Shown here in pieces: positions 8,045-24,369 of a DNA stretch of 32,529 bases (position 1 is the first letter of the stretch; each line of letters begins with the position of its first letter). Both the position numbers and the translations under genes were made by a program. Source of the DNA: an uncultured archaeon (lineage in GTDB: Archaea > Halobacteriota > Methanosarcinia > Methanosarcinales > Methanoperedenaceae); the NCBI GenBank assembly GCA_902386255.1, contig CABMII010000102.1, positions 1 through 32,529 of the forward strand, given 5' to 3'. Below the pieces are notes generated by a model, which searched no databases, was not told the origin of the DNA, and saw only the letters and a program-made list of their open reading frames with translations.

Positions 8045-8944
8045 CTATATTATCGGAGAACCTGCTATCAGGCTTCCGGCCACGTACCCAAGGATTACCC
8101 CACCATTTAGGAACGGCAGGCCGGCCTGGGGTTTACCCTTCATCACAAATCCCAGGAGCACTGCGAACCCTGCAAATGTCCCGATTATGGCGCCAATTGC
8201 GGGAATATTCACGGAGCCTATGAGCGGAAGTGAATAATAGGTTGCCTCAGTTTTGAAAAAGTTAGCTGAAACAACAAGTATCGTGGGCATCACGGCATCT
8301 CCGAGTCCCATAAAGAATGCCTCCCGTTCTTCCTTGTCGAACTTCTCAGTAAGGAAGGAATAATTCCAGTGTTTCGGGATGACCAATAATATGGGAAGCC
8401 TCAAATCCATCACGCCTTCAGCAAGCGTTATCATGTGTTTTGTCCTGTACACCGCAATATAATCATATACTAACAGCAGGACAAGTAACAGCAAAGTCGG
8501 AATAATATCAAGCGAGATGCCAAAAATCGAAGCCGCGCCCGCCCCAATGATTATGCCAACGATATCGATTACATACCATTCGGGGAATTTATAAAGGACA
8601 ATCGTCAAACCTGCTGAAAGTATAAGGGTTAAAAAGAAATTCGTTACAGGTGGTAAGAAATATGTGAAAATGGCAAAGAAAACATAATATAAGGTCGAAA
8701 TCACGGTAAAAAAGATAAAAGCCTGTATCATCCATTTTTTATTCAGTTTTATCACAACCAATATGAAAGCTGTAAAAATGAGGATAATCGCCACCCAGTA
8801 AATCACATTACTTGTAGCTTCCGGGTTGGAAAAAGCTTTGATCTGATTCACGTCAAATGGTTTGCTGAGCGCTACCGCAATCATCTGGACGAGCAGCAGC
8901 ACGAAAGCCATGCCAATGAATGGTATATATTTTGTCAGTTTCAA
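8045..8944 (-). CDS. Presenilin/signal-peptide-peptidase-like intramembrane aspartyl protease
   Basis: This 299-residue membrane protein has about nine helices. The two catalytic aspartates of the GxGD family are visible: YD at residues 160-161 and GLGD at 213-216. The third conserved element, equivalent to the PAL motif, is QAGLPFLNGG at about 273-282. Archaeal members cleave membrane-embedded substrates such as leftover signal peptides; the natural substrates here are unknown. The start codon is TTG, with GGAG five bases upstream. It is a single gene, convergent with glnK and divergent from pheA, so the neighbours give no hint of its role. Confidence 0.88.
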   Translation of the reverse strand: MKLTKYIPFIGMAFVLLLVQMIAVALSKPFDVNQIKAFSNPEATSNVIYWVAIILIFTAFILVVIKLNKKWMIQAFIFFTVISTLYYVFFAIFTYFLPPVTNFFLTLILSAGLTIVLYKFPEWYVIDIVGIIIGAGAASIFGISLDIIPTLLLLVLLLVYDYIAVYRTKHMITLAEGVMDLRLPILLVIPKHWNYSFLTEKFDKEEREAFFMGLGDAVMPTILVVSANFFKTEATYYSLPLIGSVNIPAIGAIIGTFAGFAVLLGFVMKGKPQAGLPFLNGGVILGYVAGSLIAGSPII

Positions 8945-15100: not shown

Positions 15101-16033
15101 TCATGTTGAACCTTTTTTGAGTATTTTTGCTGCTACAAACCAGACTGCGATTATAGCTGCGAATCCGATGACTATTGCAGCCACTTTCCCCATCTCTCCC
15201 ATACCCGGTATTGAGTAACTTGAGAAGAGAGGCGTTATCGCACTGTTAATTTCATGTTTCAGGACAACGTTTGCTGTTTGCCCGAGCCCGTCAGGATTGG
15301 AAGACGTAAGGAACGGCGCTGCAATGGCAAGCCCGAATAAAGCAACGATTCCGGCAGCAGCCACTTTTATTGTGCTGACTTTCTGGGGTGCATCCTCTTC
15401 AACTATGTCGGGGCGCGCTTTTATGATGGCGCCAAATACTATGACCGTAATAAGTCCTTCTCCTATTCCTGCCACGCCCTGGAATGTGCCCATGAGGAGC
15501 GCACCCTGTTTTAGTGGGAATGTGCCGGCGAACCATAACTCAAATGCAAGGGCGATTGCTGGTAAAATCATGCTTAGCCACGCGCCTGTGAATATTGCAA
15601 TCGGACGCTTTATTGATAATTTGCTTAAACCTATATAGCTATAATATCCAATGAAACCAGCGATAATTCCCATATTCAGTATGTTCGCCCCCATGGCTGT
15701 TATGCCGCCGTCCCCGAAAAGAGATTGGACTGCGAGCACAAGCGTTATCAAAAGAACTGCAGCCCACGGGCTTGCGAATATTATCGCGGCAAGCGTTGCA
15801 CCGACCACATGCCAGCTTACGCCTGTGAGCATCGGAACCGGTATGAGCAGGTTGGCTGCGATATTTATAGTCTGCAGAACGAACATGCCGGCCGCAAGCA
15901 CGCCGAAGAGCGGTATCATGTTTTCGTTTAAGTCTTTACGCGCCCATTTTATCGACCTTGCGATAAATAATATTGCGATTATCCAGTAGACTGCTGCCTG
16001 TTCCAATGGGATGTAACCATCAGGGATATGCAA
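15101..16033 (-). CDS. nikMN: ECF nickel-binding component, NikM-NikN fusion (transporter A)
   Basis: This 310-residue membrane protein starts MHIPDGY. The free N-terminal Met-His forms the metal site of this family. The M domain (about residues 1-215) contains VSWHVVGATLAAI and GDGGITAMGANILNMGI. A C-terminal N domain with two more helices contains SNPDGLGQ, the PDGL motif of NikN. The start codon is TTG with AGGAGG upstream; the Met-His requirement fixes this start. It is the first gene of nikMN-O-Q. A NikR-like box lies 57-82 bp upstream. Confidence 0.9.
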   Translation of the reverse strand: MHIPDGYIPLEQAAVYWIIAILFIARSIKWARKDLNENMIPLFGVLAAGMFVLQTINIAANLLIPVPMLTGVSWHVVGATLAAIIFASPWAAVLLITLVLAVQSLFGDGGITAMGANILNMGIIAGFIGYYSYIGLSKLSIKRPIAIFTGAWLSMILPAIALAFELWFAGTFPLKQGALLMGTFQGVAGIGEGLITVIVFGAIIKARPDIVEEDAPQKVSTIKVAAAGIVALFGLAIAAPFLTSSNPDGLGQTANVVLKHEINSAITPLFSSYSIPGMGEMGKVAAIVIGFAAIIAVWFVAAKILKKGST

Positions 16034-16276: not shown

Positions 16277-16528
16277 TTACCAGTCCATGGTGTCGCCGCA
16301 TGGTATCCTCATAGCGAGGAGCTTCTGTTCCTTCAGACCAAGTTTTGGGTACATGACGTCCAGGATCGCCAGAGCGTGGTAGCCTTCCCCATGCTGGTCT
16401 TTAATCGTATCCACAGCCCAGTTGAAGGCATCTAGGACTTTTTGACCCTGCTTGTATATTTTGTTCACTGCCTCGTTCACAACCGATTCGACCTCATTTT
16501 TTATGCTTTCCGTACTTTCGTTAACCAT
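16277..16528 (-). CDS. Small helical protein divergent from nikR, function unknown
   Basis: The protein has 83 residues and is acidic, predicted almost all helical (ESIKNEVESVVNEAVNKIYK, then VLDAFNWAVDTIKD). A tail contains HGEGYHALAIL and ends IPCGDTMDW. His, Cys and Asp in the tail could bind metal, but this is inference. GAGGTGATAAAAAG gives a good ribosome site. It shares a promoter region with nikR that contains two inverted repeats, suggesting joint control. Monocistronic, with a strong terminator. I do not recognise the family. Confidence 0.6.
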   Translation of the reverse strand: MVNESTESIKNEVESVVNEAVNKIYKQGQKVLDAFNWAVDTIKDQHGEGYHALAILDVMYPKLGLKEQKLLAMRIPCGDTMDW

Positions 16529-16687: not shown

Positions 16688-17110
16688 ATGGAGCAAGACC
16701 TGTCAAGAATTGGCGTTTCTCTTCCCGAGAACCTGCTTGTAAAATTCGATGAAATCATAACAAAAAGAGGGTACTCATCCCGTTCTGAAGGCATACGCGA
16801 CGCAATACGAAGCTATATCCGTTACTATGACTGGATGAGCGAGGTCGAAGGCGAGCGAATTGGTATTTTATCTATGACTTATGATCATTCCCAGCGCGGG
16901 CTTGTTGGTTCGCTTCTGGACTTAGAGCATGAGTTCTCTGCTATTACAAGGTCGGCTGTACACGTTCATATAAGCCATGATGAATGTATGGAAGTGCTCA
17001 TGCTCCAGGGCGATGGAAAAGAAGTAAAAGCAGTCGCTGAAAAGATCATGGCGCTAAAAGGCGTAAAGAACGTGAAGCTGACCACGATAAAGCCTGGGCA
17101 GGAAGTATAA
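16688..17110 (+). CDS. nikR: Nickel-responsive regulator NikR
   Basis: This 140-residue protein has an N-terminal ribbon-helix-helix (SRIGVSLPENLLVKFDEII, then SRSEGIRDAIRSYI, about residues 6-45) and a C-terminal ACT-like nickel domain. All four ligands of the square-planar site are present: H81, H92, H94 and C100, matching E. coli H76, H87, H89, C95 at a constant offset of five. With Ni bound it represses nickel uptake genes. Its position between transporters A and B, and the TATTAC-N14-GTAAYA sites before A and C, point to A and C as targets. AGGAG before the ATG supports the start. Confidence 0.95.
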   Translation: MEQDLSRIGVSLPENLLVKFDEIITKRGYSSRSEGIRDAIRSYIRYYDWMSEVEGERIGILSMTYDHSQRGLVGSLLDLEHEFSAITRSAVHVHISHDECMEVLMLQGDGKEVKAVAEKIMALKGVKNVKLTTIKPGQEV

Positions 17111-18561: not shown

Positions 18562-19341
18562 CTAAACAATCCTGAGATCTTTTGTTAAATACATCACCAT
18601 AAAAATCAGTCCTTCAAAGGTGATTAATGCTAACATTGTTAACTTATGAATAGAATCTTCATCCAGCAATTCTATTTTTCCATTATAGCATCTCGACTCC
18701 ATGGCAATATGAAGCTTTTCTCCTCTATTCATAGCCCTGATAAAAACATTGGTGGAAAGTAAAGATAATGAGTTCAGGGATTTTTTGAAAGTAGTGTATC
18801 CTAACCTCGTTCTTTGGGAAAGTTCCATTCTGGTCAGCTCGTCCAAAACCACGAAGATATACCTGTATATCAGCATAGAAAGTTCAATTATGATATCCGG
18901 TACCTTCAGTAGTTTCAAAGCGGAAGATATCTTTGCCATGGGCGTGGTAAACGCAAGAAAGAGCAGACAGGAAGTTCCGCTCAGCACTCTGCTTACCATA
19001 AGCAAAGCATTATTAAAGCTGTCCTTGTACATCATCAGCTTAAACCCGAGCAAATTGAATTGTATCCAGGGTTCAAAACCCCCAAAGAAAAAAATCATGG
19101 CGAGAAATAGAGGAATGGCATAAAACAGTGGTATGGAAAACCACGTAAAATAATCTCTTGCAGGAATTTTAGCCATAACTATGGTTAAAAAGACCATAGT
19201 ACAAAAAATTATAAAAGGCACTATTGGAGAATTGGAAAAAACACCAAAAATAACGTTAGAAAGTACAAATAGCACTTTTAACCTGACACTGGTATTTTTC
19301 AGTGCATTAGAATATGCGTACTCTTCCATGAACAAGCGCAT
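18562..19341 (-). CDS. cbiQ: ECF transporter T component CbiQ (transporter B)
   Basis: The protein has 259 residues and about six membrane helices. Coupling-helix motifs occur near ISSALKLLKVP and GEKLHIAMESRCYNG. The start is the ATG at 19341 (MRLFMEEYAYSN). The frame stays open 83 codons upstream, but that part overlaps cbiN out of frame and reads as a shadow. A copy of its first codons survives upstream between the two cbiN genes, followed by a stop codon, which shows that the duplication unit included the cbiQ 5' tip. Confidence 0.9.
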   Translation of the reverse strand: MRLFMEEYAYSNALKNTSVRLKVLFVLSNVIFGVFSNSPIVPFIIFCTMVFLTIVMAKIPARDYFTWFSIPLFYAIPLFLAMIFFFGGFEPWIQFNLLGFKLMMYKDSFNNALLMVSRVLSGTSCLLFLAFTTPMAKISSALKLLKVPDIIIELSMLIYRYIFVVLDELTRMELSQRTRLGYTTFKKSLNSLSLLSTNVFIRAMNRGEKLHIAMESRCYNGKIELLDEDSIHKLTMLALITFEGLIFMVMYLTKDLRIV

Positions 19342-19345
19342 GCTT

Positions 19346-19654
19346 TCACTTCCCTGAAACTTCTTTTTTACCTTTGTAGTAGCCGGCGTAATACCCAACG
19401 AAAATTGCCCCAATGGCAGCCTGGAAAGAGAACAGGAACGTTTCGACCTCGCCGCTCGGTGGCTCCCATACAGGCGTAAACCAGGGCTTGTACTGGCCGT
19501 CAGATATCCCTCCGATCTGGTTAACGAGAAGATTGTCATCGTCACCGCCTGCCAACGTTCCTGCTCCATTTGTTGCCTGGTTACCTGCAATATAAACCAG
19601 CAATAGCAGAGCTGCTATGGATATGAAGATTATTAAGTATCCCATTTTTTTCAT
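19346..19654 (-). CDS. cbiN: ECF cobalt transporter subunit CbiN, copy 1
   Basis: This 102-residue protein has two membrane helices (about residues 5-23 and 73-92) with an extracellular loop containing YKPWFTPVWEPPSGEVE, the hallmark of CbiN. CbiN helps CbiM load Co2+. It is about three quarters identical to the next gene upstream, from which it differs by a two-residue insertion (DDDN for DS). Both copies are intact. AGGTGA precedes its ATG. Confidence 0.88.
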   Translation of the reverse strand: MKKMGYLIIFISIAALLLLVYIAGNQATNGAGTLAGGDDDNLLVNQIGGISDGQYKPWFTPVWEPPSGEVETFLFSFQAAIGAIFVGYYAGYYKGKKEVSGK

Positions 19655-19721: not shown

Positions 19722-20024
19722 TCACTTCTCTGAAGCTTCTTTTTTACCTTTGTAGTAGCCGACGTAAAGCCCTACGAACAGTGCCCCCATGGCAGCCTGG
19801 AAAGAGAACATGAAAGTTTCGACCTCGCCGCTCTGTGGCTTCCATATAGGCGTAAACCAGGGCTTGTACTCGCCGCCAGTTACCCCCGCGATCTGGTTCA
19901 CGAGAAGAGAGTCACCGCCTGCCCACGCTCCTGCTCCATTTATTGGCTGGTTAGCTGTAATATAAATCAGCCATAGCAGGGCTGCTATGGATATGAAGAT
20001 TATTAAGTATCCCGTTTTTTTCAT
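19722..20024 (-). CDS. cbiN: ECF cobalt transporter subunit CbiN, copy 2
   Basis: This 100-residue paralogue of the following gene has the same two-helix layout and the loop [17 protein letters not shown]. It starts within the end of cbiM (ATGA overlap), the ancestral arrangement of cbiM-cbiN. About 24 residue differences from copy 1 are mostly conservative (I/V, L/M, A/G), suggesting both copies are under selection rather than one decaying. Confidence 0.88.
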
Positions 20025-20725
20025 TGAGCATCACCTGCCACATGAGGTGACTCTGTAACCTGAGGTGACCCTTCAACCCTCAACTTGGTGAGTATATCGG
20101 GTCTTATCTGTTTGAGGTATTTGAACAGACCGGCTGTAACAATACCCTCTATAGCTGCAAGAGGCAACTGGGTGACAGCAAATATTGCAAAAAACAGTTT
20201 AAACGAGGCAAACACGCCGCCGACAGCTGCCGGGAATGCGAGGGCAAGCTGGAAAGAAGTTGTAACGTATGTAGCTATATCTCCCAGGAAAGAAGCCAGG
20301 AAGACCGAGGAATAAAAGTTCATTCCGGATTTAGTGCATGCTTTATAAACAATAAACGCTATTACCGGGTCGACTATTCCCATGGAGAAGGTATTAGCAC
20401 CGAGCGTAGTAATACCGCCATGTGCAAGAAGCAATGCCTGAAATAAGAGTACTATAAACCCGAGCACAGCAGTAATTGAAGGCCCGAACAGGATAGCTCC
20501 AAATCCAGTCCCTGTCGGATGCGAGCAGCTCCCTGTGACAGATGGTATTTTCATTGCTGATAAAACGAAAGCGAAGGCGCCTGCCAAAGCCAGGGTTGGC
20601 TTTATTCCTGGTTCTAATCTGACCGCTTTTTTTATCTTCCATATTCCATACGCTACCACAGGTAAGCTCAAAGCAAACCATATCTCCCACCACGGGTGGG
20701 GTAAAAATCCTTCTGCTATGTGCAT
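20021..20725 (-). CDS. cbiM: ECF cobalt-binding component CbiM (transporter B)
   Basis: This 234-residue membrane protein starts MHIAEGFLP, giving the N-terminal Met-His metal site. It contains [18 protein letters not shown], the CbiM block typical of cobalt transporters, whereas the two nickel-type M proteins in this window have HVVGAT and HAVGGT there. [16 protein letters not shown] is also present. About seven helices. ATG start. It is first in cbiM-N-N-Q-O and sits 83 bp downstream of the ArsR-DUF4430 regulator on the same strand. Confidence 0.93.
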
Positions 20726-20782
20726 ATTAAATCAGACGCTTCATGCAGACAATAACAAAAGAACATGTGTTTTTGGGTGCTA

Positions 20783-20806
20783 ATTATTACTTGAACGGGT
20801 AATGAT
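20783..20806. promoter_or_regulatory. Inverted repeat before the cobalt operon
   Basis: ATTATTAC-N8-GTAATGAT has one mismatch in 8-bp arms. It lies between the regulator's stop codon and cbiM, about 60 bp before the cbiM ATG, where an operator or promoter element for the cobalt operon is expected. The half-site resembles the NikR-like TATTAC, but the spacing differs (8 rather than 14). Confidence 0.4.
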
Positions 20807-20808
20807 GA

Positions 20809-21315
20809 CTATGTTTCAATTTTAACGAATATTTTCTTCCGCGTCACAGGCACCAGTTTTTTCCATTCTATGGTGGAATCTTTTTCAATCTTGAATTCTC
20901 CGACAGTAGTATCAGGAGACTTTCCATTGACTTCATAAATATAGAAGCCCTGCTCGCCGTCGATTGATATGACAAACTCTTTGTCCCGGACTTCCTTTAC
21001 CTCCACCCCACCGACCTTTTTTAACGCCTCAAGAATACTCGATCCCTTTGGCACATTAACTTCACAGGTGCCTGCAAGCTCATTAAGCAGATTGTCAATA
21101 TTCTCTATTTTACTTCTCAGCACATGGGTTTTGCCAAATTTCCTTCTCTGAATTAACCCGGCAGTTTCTAAAATTTTAACATGCCTTGCCACAACAGGAT
21201 TTGAAAGATTTAGCTCTCTTGCAAGCCCTGAGATATGCATTTCTTTTTTTGCCAGTGTTTTAAGCATTTTCAACCGAGTTGTGCTGCTCAGTACTTTGAA
21301 TAAATCATTGCTCAT
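20809..21315 (-). CDS. ArsR-family regulator fused to a DUF4430-like domain
   Basis: This 168-residue protein has a winged helix-turn-helix (about residues 1-75: STTRLKMLKTLAKKEMHISG, then ELNLSNPVVARHVKILETAGLI). The remaining part reads as a DUF4430-type domain: GSSILEALKK, VISIDG, FYIYEVNGK and EFKIEKDSTIEWKKL in the expected order. DUF4430 is related to the beta-domain of cobalamin carriers such as transcobalamin and to SLBB folds. Metal-binding cysteines of classical ArsR sensors are missing (one Cys only). Location directly upstream of cbiMNNQO suggests it senses a corrinoid or related ligand and controls cobalt uptake; this is inference. Confidence 0.75.
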   Translation of the reverse strand: MSNDLFKVLSSTTRLKMLKTLAKKEMHISGLARELNLSNPVVARHVKILETAGLIQRRKFGKTHVLRSKIENIDNLLNELAGTCEVNVPKGSSILEALKKVGGVEVKEVRDKEFVISIDGEQGFYIYEVNGKSPDTTVGEFKIEKDSTIEWKKLVPVTRKKIFVKIET

Positions 21316-21377
21316 ATAGGTAACAATTATTGCTTAAAGCTAATACCTTTTGTTGGATGCTGGAAGATTTAAGATTT

Positions 21378-21465: not shown

Positions 21466-21552
21466 CTAAAGATATATTGTATTATAAAATTGTAATACTA
21501 TATACTAACTAAAATAGAATCGTTGCGAAATATTATTCAAGGAGGTAAAAAC

Positions 21553-22272
21553 TTGCATATTCCAGATGGATACTTGGGACCAATAACATGGATGGCTTTA
21601 TGGATTGTGATGATACCTTTGTGGATCATTGCATCAAGAAAACTGAAAAAAGACCTGAAAACAAAAAACGTTCCCCTGCTGGCGATGGGAGCAGCTTTTT
21701 CATTTGTAATAATGATGTTCAACGTTCCTGTACTCGGAGGTTCAACCGGCCATGCAGTGGGCGGCACGCTCATAGCTATAGTTTTAGGACCATGGGCGGC
21801 TCTGGTAGCGGTTTCTGTTGCCCTGGTAATTCAGGCGCTCTTCTTTGGAGACGGTGGGATTACCGCAATCGGCGCCAATTGTTTCAATATGGGAGTTGTA
21901 CTGCCTTTTGTAGGATACTATGTGTATAGACTGATAAGCGCCAATGCTGATACAAGCTCATCACGACACTGGATAGGAGCGGGAATTGGAAGCTATATAG
22001 GTATAAACGTTGCAGCCACATTAACTGGATTTGAGTTCGGTTTACAAACGATTCTTTATCCGGCAGTTAACGGAAAATTCCAGTATTTCATGTACCCTCT
22101 CAGCGTTTCAGTACCAGCAATGGCTTTCGAACATCTGCTGGTATTCGGTTTTATTGAAGCTATCGTTACAGCTCTGGTTGTCAGATACCTGCAGCAGACA
22201 GACCCATCGCTATTAAGACTTACAGAAAGAACAATTTCACAGGATAAAATACCTGCCGGGGTGAGTGTATGA
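21553..22272 (+). CDS. nikM: ECF nickel-binding component NikM (transporter C)
   Basis: The protein has 239 residues. The start is TTG at 21553, seven bases after AGGAGGT; it yields the N-terminus Met-His-Ile-Pro-Asp-Gly needed for metal binding. The longer frame from 21523 would bury this motif. The protein has about seven helices and the blocks STGHAVGGTLIAIVLGP and GDGGITAIGANCFNMGV. It resembles the M part of transporter A more than cobalt CbiM. It heads nikM-N-Q-O and overlaps the next gene by ATGA. Confidence 0.9.
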   Translation: MHIPDGYLGPITWMALWIVMIPLWIIASRKLKKDLKTKNVPLLAMGAAFSFVIMMFNVPVLGGSTGHAVGGTLIAIVLGPWAALVAVSVALVIQALFFGDGGITAIGANCFNMGVVLPFVGYYVYRLISANADTSSSRHWIGAGIGSYIGINVAATLTGFEFGLQTILYPAVNGKFQYFMYPLSVSVPAMAFEHLLVFGFIEAIVTALVVRYLQQTDPSLLRLTERTISQDKIPAGVSV

Positions 22273-22613
22273 ACAAGAATACGCAAAAGAAATTATGGAT
22301 AGGACTGCTTATACTGGCTGTACTTACACCAATTGGACTTCTTGCACAGGGAACCGCCTTCGGTGAATGGGGCTCTGGAGAGTTACAGCAGACTCTGGGT
22401 TATGTGCCTGCCGGTATAAAGAGCGGAGAAACACTCTGGCAGGCAATATTCTCAGGTTACAGTATGCCAGGTTTTGGGAATAGCTTCCTGCATTCAAGCA
22501 TTGGCTACATTCTCTCTGCTGTAATAGGAATCGCTTTGATTTATACCGCGACGCTTACCCTCGGAAAAATCATCGCGAAAAGAGAAGAGGAACAGAGAAA
22601 TGAAAATCCCTGA
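22269..22613 (+). CDS. nikN: NikN-like auxiliary membrane subunit (transporter C)
   Basis: This 114-residue protein has two membrane helices (about residues 9-28 and 78-99) bracketing an outside loop with GTAFGEWGSGEL and GYVPAGIKSGETLW. The start LTPIGLLAQGTAFGEWG is typical of the PDGLE/NikN-type subunit of nickel ECF systems, although a literal PDGLE motif is absent. ATGA overlap with nikM and a 14-base overlap with nikQ show tight coupling. Confidence 0.8.
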   Translation: MNKNTQKKLWIGLLILAVLTPIGLLAQGTAFGEWGSGELQQTLGYVPAGIKSGETLWQAIFSGYSMPGFGNSFLHSSIGYILSAVIGIALIYTATLTLGKIIAKREEEQRNENP

Positions 22614-23538
22614 TTGGCTCTCTGAGAGCGCTCCCTGCCCGTGCTGTAGTATCGGCGTGGGCGGGAAGAAAAATTTTGTTGAGAAAACACTTGTCGAGAT
22701 AGCAGGCATGATGGAGCGTTCCATTTTCTCTGAAAAATATGCCAATGCTAAAGGTTTTCTCCAGAGTATTGATCCAAGGGTCAAATTAGTAACCATACTG
22801 CTTTTGATAGTAACGACCAGTTTTATCAGTAAAACAGAGATTATCCTGGGAATATATGCATTGACGTTGTTCTTTGCTTATCTCTCGAAAGTAGAACTAT
22901 TTTTCTTTATTAAGAGAGTCTGGCTTTTCATCCCTATTTTTTCGGGGATAGTAGCCTTCCCGGCCATGTTTAATGTAGTTACTCCAGGCGAATCGCTTGT
23001 TACACTCCTGCGCTTTAACAGCACTATCCACATCTGGGTGTTTCAATTCACAGAGATATCGATTACAAAAGAAGGAGCACTTGGAGCACTGTTATTCATT
23101 TCCAGAGTAGCTACCTCAGTCTCATTAATAGTTCTATTGACCCTCACAACCCGGTGGGTTGATGTTATGAAGTCATTGAGGACATTGGGTGTGCCTCAAA
23201 TATTTGTCCTTGTCCTCAGCATGACATACCAGTACATCTTCTTACTTGTCAGGATAGTACAGGAAATGCACCTTGCCAAAAAGAGCAGGACAATTAAAAC
23301 TAACACGACACGTCAGGGAATAAAGAAGGAGCAGAACTGGGTAGCCTCACGGATAGGAACTGTTCTTATGAAATCCTATAAAATGAGTGACGAGATACAC
23401 TCTGCAATGGTGTCGCGGGGTTTTCACGGGGAAATTAAATCCCATGGAACTTTCAAAATAAGAAATATCGACCGCATCTGGACTGGTTTCTCATTGGCAT
23501 TTATCACAGGAGTTATCTGGCTGAACTATCTGGTATGA
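22600..23538 (+). CDS. nikQ: ECF transporter T component NikQ/CbiQ (transporter C)
   Basis: The protein has 312 residues, longer than the two other Q proteins in the window because of a soluble N-terminus. That N-terminus carries a CPCC motif (about residues 13-16) followed by KKNFVEKTL. The membrane part starts after DPRVKLVTIL. Coupling regions are SLRTLGVP and DEIHSAMVSRGFHG. The Cys cluster could bind metal or be a family trait of nickel-type Q proteins; I cannot decide. It starts inside nikN and ends 6 bp before nikO. Confidence 0.88.
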   Translation: MKIPDWLSESAPCPCCSIGVGGKKNFVEKTLVEIAGMMERSIFSEKYANAKGFLQSIDPRVKLVTILLLIVTTSFISKTEIILGIYALTLFFAYLSKVELFFFIKRVWLFIPIFSGIVAFPAMFNVVTPGESLVTLLRFNSTIHIWVFQFTEISITKEGALGALLFISRVATSVSLIVLLTLTTRWVDVMKSLRTLGVPQIFVLVLSMTYQYIFLLVRIVQEMHLAKKSRTIKTNTTRQGIKKEQNWVASRIGTVLMKSYKMSDEIHSAMVSRGFHGEIKSHGTFKIRNIDRIWTGFSLAFITGVIWLNYLV

Positions 23539-23544
23539 GGAAAC

Positions 23545-24369
23545 ATGACCATATTTGAAATAAAAAACGTAAATTACCTCTACTTAAACAAGATACCTGC
23601 GCTCAATGACATTAATCTCTCGATAGAAGAGGGCGAACAGGTAGCAATACTCGGCGCAAATGGTAGCGGTAAATCCACACTTCTGAAGCTTCTTGACGGT
23701 CTGATTTTTCCTTCATCAGGTGTTGTCAAAGCATTCGGCAAAATTCTTACCGAAAATATTCTGGATGGAGAAGGAGGAGATTTTCCACAGTTTTTCAGGA
23801 AAAAAGTGGGATTGATATTCCAGAACTCGGAAGCACAACTATTCTGCCCGACAGTTCTGGATGAAATCAAATTCGGTCCACTACAACTAGACATTAAAGA
23901 GAAGGAGATTAATAAAAGGGTACATGATGTAATGGAGATGCTGAATATCGAAAATCTCAAAGATCGTGCCCCTTACACGCTGAGCGGCGGCGAGAAAAAA
24001 AAGGTAGCTATAGCTTCGGTACTAACTATAAATCCAGATGTGATACTGCTGGATGAGCCAACTAACGGGCTTGATCCGCGAACCCAGAGATGGCTTGTCG
24101 AATTGTTAATTGAACTTAGAAAAACCGGGAAGACAATTATAATTGCAACGCACGATCTGGGTATCGTAGAAGAGGTTTCCGAGCGCGCAGTCGTTTTCAG
24201 TGAAGACCACAGGATAGTAGCAAACGGTGAAGCAAAGGCTATCCTGAATAATACAGAACTGCTAATGCAGGTGAATCTTATTCATGAACATCATCACAGG
24301 CACGAAGAAATCGTACATAAACACAGACATGAACACTCTTCAGAACATGATCATGGCCATGTCTTGTAA
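23545..24369 (+). CDS. nikO: ECF ATPase NikO/CbiO with a His-rich C-terminal tail (transporter C)
   Basis: This 274-residue ABC ATPase has Walker A GANGSGKST, Q-loop LIFQNSEAQLFCPTVLDEI (NSEAQLF replaces the more usual DPDDQIF), signature LSGGEKKKVAIAS and Walker B VILLDEPTNGLDP. The last 26 residues hold a dense run of His with Glu/Arg/Lys, including HEHHHRHEE and HSSEHDHGH. Such tails bind Ni2+ in nickel proteins such as HypB, so this may store or sense cytoplasmic nickel at the transporter. Last gene of the operon. Confidence 0.9.
   Translation: MTIFEIKNVNYLYLNKIPALNDINLSIEEGEQVAILGANGSGKSTLLKLLDGLIFPSSGVVKAFGKILTENILDGEGGDFPQFFRKKVGLIFQNSEAQLFCPTVLDEIKFGPLQLDIKEKEINKRVHDVMEMLNIENLKDRAPYTLSGGEKKKVAIASVLTINPDVILLDEPTNGLDPRTQRWLVELLIELRKTGKTIIIATHDLGIVEEVSERAVVFSEDHRIVANGEAKAILNNTELLMQVNLIHEHHHRHEEIVHKHRHEHSSEHDHGHVL

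Follow-up and report, generated by a model that had tools for sequence, protein, structure and literature searches.

Our combined analyses point to a small archaeal protein that probably acts as an autoregulated one-component repressor of cobalt acquisition and senses a cobamide or other corrinoid through an SLBB domain, a reading to which we assign a probability of roughly 60%. The protein (168 aa) is encoded on the minus strand at positions 20809-21315 of the DNA analyzed here, a 32,529-nucleotide stretch from an uncultured Methanoperedenaceae archaeon (hereafter the window). Computational analysis revealed its domain architecture, its fold and its association with genes for cobalt and corrinoid uptake, along with a conserved candidate operator at its own gene and at its predicted target. 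That it controls cobalt genes is very likely, given the support from co-occurrence, gene context and a palindrome common to the promoters of the regulator and its targets. That its ligand is a corrinoid has slightly better than even odds, argued from the fold, from neighbors of the BtuFCD and CbiZ types and from corrinoid binding by an isolated human beta domain (PMC5599065).

The idea of such sensing has been published before. Burroughs, Balaji, Iyer and Aravind, who defined the SLBB superfamily in 2007, proposed B12, its precursors or some other soluble ligand as the signal read by a Methanosarcina ArsR-SLBB fusion (gi:72395507) (PMC1796856). An earlier note on this DNA, made from the sequence alone, had taken this sensing mode to be undescribed for ArsR proteins; at the level of prediction this does not hold, as both the fusion and the proposal are found in the 2007 paper. 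The two proteins share the fusion, the archaeal order and the proposed role, a likeness drawn from architecture and not from the gi:72395507 sequence. The available portions of the 2007 account name no target genes and report no ligand test for the fusion; what this analysis adds is a candidate operator together with target genes. Searching the literature for SLBB and ArsR together returned no paper other than this one, and no experimental test of the predicted sensing was found in the literature searched. A paper on Methanoperedens plasmids notes a CbiMNQO possibly under the control of “an Ars regulator”, whose second domain goes unmentioned in the available portions of that paper (PMC9674854).

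The open reading frame is genuine and conserved, and profile searches confirmed both of the domains that the earlier note had proposed. Residues 13-56 match Pfam HTH_5 (E 4.6e-11, 42.9 bits vs a cutoff of 22) and the protein matches the ArsR/SmtB subfamily NF033788 of NCBIfam (61.9 bits, cutoff 55); with the Foldseek matches given below, the winged-helix DNA-binding domain spans residues ~3-76 (21088-21309, minus strand). Residues 91-152 match DUF4430 (PF14478; E 1.2e-7, 32.5 bits, cutoff 23.8), the sole Pfam family found in the C-terminal part and one that is matched by 47 of 66 homologous domains. From this match and a domain model, the DUF4430/SLBB domain, similar to the transcobalamin beta domain, spans residues ~85-154 (20854-21063, minus strand). 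The protein is thus built as an ArsR-type winged helix directly fused to a transcobalamin-type SLBB domain, with no further domain. The fusion is present in one copy in the window's genome, was found in 32 places (42-92% identity) in a search of the 60 nearest genomes, and its full-length profile matched in 110 of 393 genomes of a phylum sample, from the window's order and a few further families. This conservation across the nearest genomes and the phylum sample means that it is neither a chance reading frame nor an assembly artefact. The nearest named relatives are Candidatus Methanoperedens records (81-92% identity), which assigns the window to Candidatus Methanoperedens; Methanosarcinales records are also among the named matches, and a plasmid search for the regulator yielded partial winged-helix matches only.

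A full-length structural model, built from 29 sequences, was of good quality in the winged helix only, and its Foldseek matches were the winged helices of CzrA, SmtB and NolR (probability 1.00). Since this search returned the winged helix only, we modeled the C-terminal domain alone from 66 sequences. The resulting model (pLDDT 89) consists of a helix followed by strands, in overall keeping with the beta-grasp fold of the transcobalamin clade, in which a hairpin insert comes after the helix, and its best PDB matches are all domains of the transcobalamin clade: ranks 1-17 are transcobalamin, haptocorrin, intrinsic factor and the DUF4430 protein 3u7z (probability 0.85-1.00), including the transcobalamin beta domain in apo and cyanocobalamin-bound forms as well as whole transcobalamins. 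At rank 18 the probability drops to 0.51, with ThiS, another beta-grasp protein. The E-values of the transcobalamin-type matches are weak (0.03-0.8) and the ranking is clean, so it is the ranking and not any single E-value that carries the argument. When the domain alignment was run as a sequence profile against PDB chains, it recovered no transcobalamin and nothing convincing. Within the domain, G91, L98, G123, Y127, E128, G131, K152, L154 and P156 are nearly invariant. The model supports a fold like that of the transcobalamin beta domain, as the earlier note had suspected. The beta domain of human transcobalamin, crystallized without its partner domain, was seen to bind both cyanocobalamin and cobinamide, indicating that such a domain can accommodate a corrinoid by itself (PMC5599065). 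While the SLBB domain is predicted to share the fold of the beta domains of transcobalamin, intrinsic factor and haptocorrin, it differs from those proteins in being part of an intracellular DNA-binding fusion and in lacking the alpha/alpha toroid that completes their B12 site.

ArsR/SmtB is classically a family of metal sensors. It is conceivable that the regulator governs the uptake of cobalt while responding to free Co(II) itself, bound by conserved histidine or acidic residues in either the winged helix or the SLBB domain. H27, H45, H64 and E128 are indeed near-invariant, H27 has no histidine counterpart in two aligned ArsR-family chains, the nearest solved relative of the C-terminal domain, 3u7z, carries the title “putative metal binding protein”, and the predicted targets in Methanoperedens are transporters of cobalt ions. 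Yet the 67 full-length regulator sequences contain not one conserved cysteine, in agreement with the earlier note, which had found the metal cysteines of ArsR sensors to be missing, and they have no conserved histidine in the C-terminal domain. Furthermore, a Cys/His sensor site of the alpha3N or alpha5 type is missing, the helix after the wing carries no conserved His/Asp cluster, the recognition helix and the wing house H45 and H64, and some of the linked systems described below (a BtuFCD-type transporter, CbiZ) handle corrinoid rather than cobalt ion. We thus consider Co(II) sensing unlikely, although it is the strongest of the alternatives. With no conserved Cys or His/Asp site and with H27, H45 and H64 as its only conserved histidines, the regulator is, judging from its sequence, a member of ArsR/SmtB by fold and not a classical metal sensor. 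It has in common with ArsR, SmtB, CzrA, NmtR and KmtR the winged helix and probably the binding of an operator as a dimer, and differs from them in the missing conserved metal cysteines and the additional C-terminal beta-grasp domain.

The placement of the gene next to cobalt uptake genes was borne out. Downstream on the same strand, from 20725 to 17184, lies a cbiM-cbiN-cbiN-cbiQ-cbiO operon, the predicted target: cbiM of the classical cobalt type (TIGR00123, 291 bits, cutoff 184; 20021-20725), cbiN (PF02553, 57 bits; 19722-20024), a second cbiN copy (PF02553, 58.8 bits; 19346-19654), cbiQ (TIGR02454, 161 bits, cutoff 111.8; 18562-19350) and a cbiO ATPase with a C-terminal DUF7839 domain (PF00005, PF25211; 17184-18569), all on the minus strand. 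Both members of the tandem cbiN pair score above the Pfam cutoff. This CbiO carries DUF7839 (66 bits), for which the window's other two CbiO proteins, at 274 aa, lack the length. A second cluster, cbiM-PDGLE-cbiQ-cbiO (21523-24369), diverges from the regulator at 21523 and begins with a cbiM of another subfamily that has a separate PDGLE-domain partner (21523-22272, plus strand). In both this cluster and a third cbi cluster, cbiM belongs to other subfamilies and the partners are of the PDGLE type. The ribbon-helix-helix regulator NikR is encoded at 16688-17110, and between the third cluster and nikR is an 83-aa reading frame with no Pfam match (16277-16528). A riboswitch search of the window found none.

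Across related genomes, presence of the regulator follows that of cobalt transporters. Among 31 Methanoperedens genomes it is found in 14, which are exactly those with CbtA (8 genomes) or a TIGR00123-type cbiM (6 genomes), each counted as present only above its profile cutoff; the remaining 17 have neither transporter. For an exact match among all sets of 14 the nominal probability is 3.8e-9, a value inflated by the kinship of the genomes. One genome (G021) even carries two regulators and two CbtA genes, which share two contigs. In the same family, a genome of another genus (G032) has the regulator and a TIGR00123-type cbiM, and two further genomes (G031 and G033) have neither. Outside Methanoperedenaceae the rule is looser, with a TIGR00123-type cbiM but no regulator in some genomes of families f2 and f3.

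Gene context in other genomes shows the same association with different systems. The regulator-cbiMNQO order is kept in the sister genomes G002, G003 and G004, and in other Methanoperedens the regulator is divergent from cbtB-cbtA (PF09489, 46-49 bits; PF09490, 141 bits). In family f2 it is followed by a BtuF-like binding protein, a permease, an ATPase and CbiZ, and in one group of genomes of f5, a family that appears to be Methanosarcinaceae-like, it is divergent from DUF2162-ExbB-DUF2149-CobN. Further loci place it beside CbiZ, NicO with CbiMNQO, or BtuFCD. With a fixed marker set that left out BtuFC-only matches, a cobalt or corrinoid marker was present within about 6 kb at 34 of 71 regulator loci vs 1 of 40 loci drawn at random from these genomes, a difference for which a Fisher value is only indicative because the loci are related. 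One locus (L056, in G026) enters this count through a 102-aa cbiM remnant (8205-8513) that follows the regulator. In that genome the intact cbiMNQO is some 6 kb distant, so the operon has apparently been rearranged while the operator was kept. Some f5 genomes also carry short paralogs (108-132 aa; L141, L142, L143, L144) that resemble the winged-helix part of the regulator, and two of these adjoin BtuCD-type genes.

About half of the surveyed loci, including those of f10 (another class) and several of f5/Methanosarcinaceae, have no cobalt-gene neighbor within that distance, as might be seen if the regulator were unrelated to cobalt and its neighborhood in the window a coincidence. This we regard as very improbable in view of the separate linkages to several cobalt and corrinoid systems, the far lower count at random loci, the exceptionless co-occurrence in the genus and an operator common to targets that are not linked to the regulator. 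Thus, the association with cobalt genes elsewhere, on which the earlier note's interpretation depended, was recovered both within the genus and beyond it.

The candidate operator is a palindrome of the form GGTAAYA-NN-TRTTACC. Directly before the ATG of the regulator lies a near-palindrome, AGCAATAATTGTTACC on the minus strand (predicted operator O1, 21319-21334), which occupies the same place in Methanoperedens relatives and is the sole zero-mismatch match located in a promoter in its own genome. A degenerate copy, AGTAATAATTAGCACC (predicted operator O2, 20776-20791), is found 50 nt before the cbiM ATG. We built a scoring matrix from regulator promoters only and then applied it to other promoters. 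O2 itself scored 9.4 (P~0.018), but its position is kept in sister genomes, and in G026 and G029 it is a perfect palindrome. In seven Methanoperedenaceae genomes the TIGR00123-type cbiM is preceded by the palindrome at a distance of 45-51 nt, or 45-50 nt in the five that comprise the window, G026, G004, G003 and G002, with scores of 19.5 in G026 (perfect palindrome GGTAATAATTATTACC), 17.8 in G004, 13.7 in G003, 11.3 in G002 and 9.5 in G032. The intergenic site between cbtB and the regulator in G006 scored 19.2, and the promoters of btuF in two genomes of f2 scored 11.2. A genus-wide search for exact sites found 11, of which just two were found at a gene start, both of them before cbiM: one in G026, whose regulator lies some 6 kb off, and one in G029, whose regulator is on a different contig. 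Allowing one mismatch genome-wide performed no better than the control, and we therefore used only exact or promoter-located sites.

The Methanoperedens matrix did not extend to most Methanosarcinaceae. In families f2 and f4, and upstream of the regulator at L084, L086, L077 and L074, a related but different palindrome, ~GCTMATA..TATKAGC, could be seen by eye overlapping the start codon of the regulator, which suggests that the operator drifted along with the protein. Within the window, the operator is missing from both nickel-type cbiM promoters and from that of nikR (scores 0.9-2.2), with the promoter of the divergent cbiM (21523) at 2.2 (P~0.37). About 55 nt before this divergent cbiM there is a different inverted repeat, with core GTATTATAAAATTGTAATAC (21479-21498, within 21473-21504). 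We considered it as the operator of the regulator and set it aside, as it is missing at the regulator's own promoter and at TIGR00123-type cbiM promoters; it is probably the site of another regulator, which may be NikR. An AT-rich stretch similar to the GTATTATAAAATTGTAATAC repeat precedes the cbiM starting at 16033, and these are possibly NikR sites. NikR is likewise a regulator of metal uptake in the same neighborhood, and differs from the regulator studied here in its ribbon-helix-helix fold and in a promoter with no such operator.

These promoter data also bear on whether the ligand might be another tetrapyrrole or organic molecule typical of methane-cycling archaea, for example coenzyme F430 or a common precursor, with the cobalt genes being only part of the regulon. 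The finding of the regulator, within the sampled phylum, in the window's order and in a few further families would fit such a ligand, as would the several loci with no cobalt gene nearby, and ligands besides B12 were allowed for by both reviewers and authors in the available portions of the 2007 paper (PMC1796856). However, two observations argue against this reading: in Methanoperedens the regulator co-occurs exactly with cobalt transporters, and the operator is missing at the nickel-type cbiM and nikR promoters. We find it quite improbable, more so than Co(II) sensing.

For the favored reading, that of a corrinoid-responsive repressor, the following mechanism can be proposed. A dimer of the winged helix would bind GGTAAYA-NN-TRTTACC, which sits at the likely transcription start of the regulator gene and of the CbiMNQO operon, and of cbtBA in sister species. 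The SLBB domain would bind a cobamide or a corrinoid intermediate and so set the affinity for DNA, with ligand binding presumably strengthening it. When cellular cobamide is sufficient, the regulator would thus block transcription; repression rather than activation is suggested by the position of the operator between the likely TATA element and the start codon. Bacterial cobalamin riboswitch regulons cover CbiMNQO, CbtAB and BtuFCD, a set that overlaps the predicted targets of this regulator, and here a protein would take the place of the RNA.

Methanogens and anaerobic methanotrophs all need corrinoid for the Mtr methyltransferase, and to our knowledge little is known of how archaea regulate their supply of cobalt and cobamides. 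With the proposed operator, the targets and the naturally unlinked cases, the domain-based prediction of 2007 becomes a circuit open to direct testing. Should the ligand prove to be a cobamide, an organometallic cofactor would join the ligands sensed by ArsR proteins, and the regulator could yield a genetically encoded B12 sensor. We see an even chance that methane-cycling archaea use an ArsR-class protein with a transcobalamin-like domain as a cobamide sensor to control the acquisition of cobalt and corrinoids. If so, this protein would be the counterpart of the bacterial B12 riboswitch, responding to a class of ligand not demonstrated for ArsR proteins.
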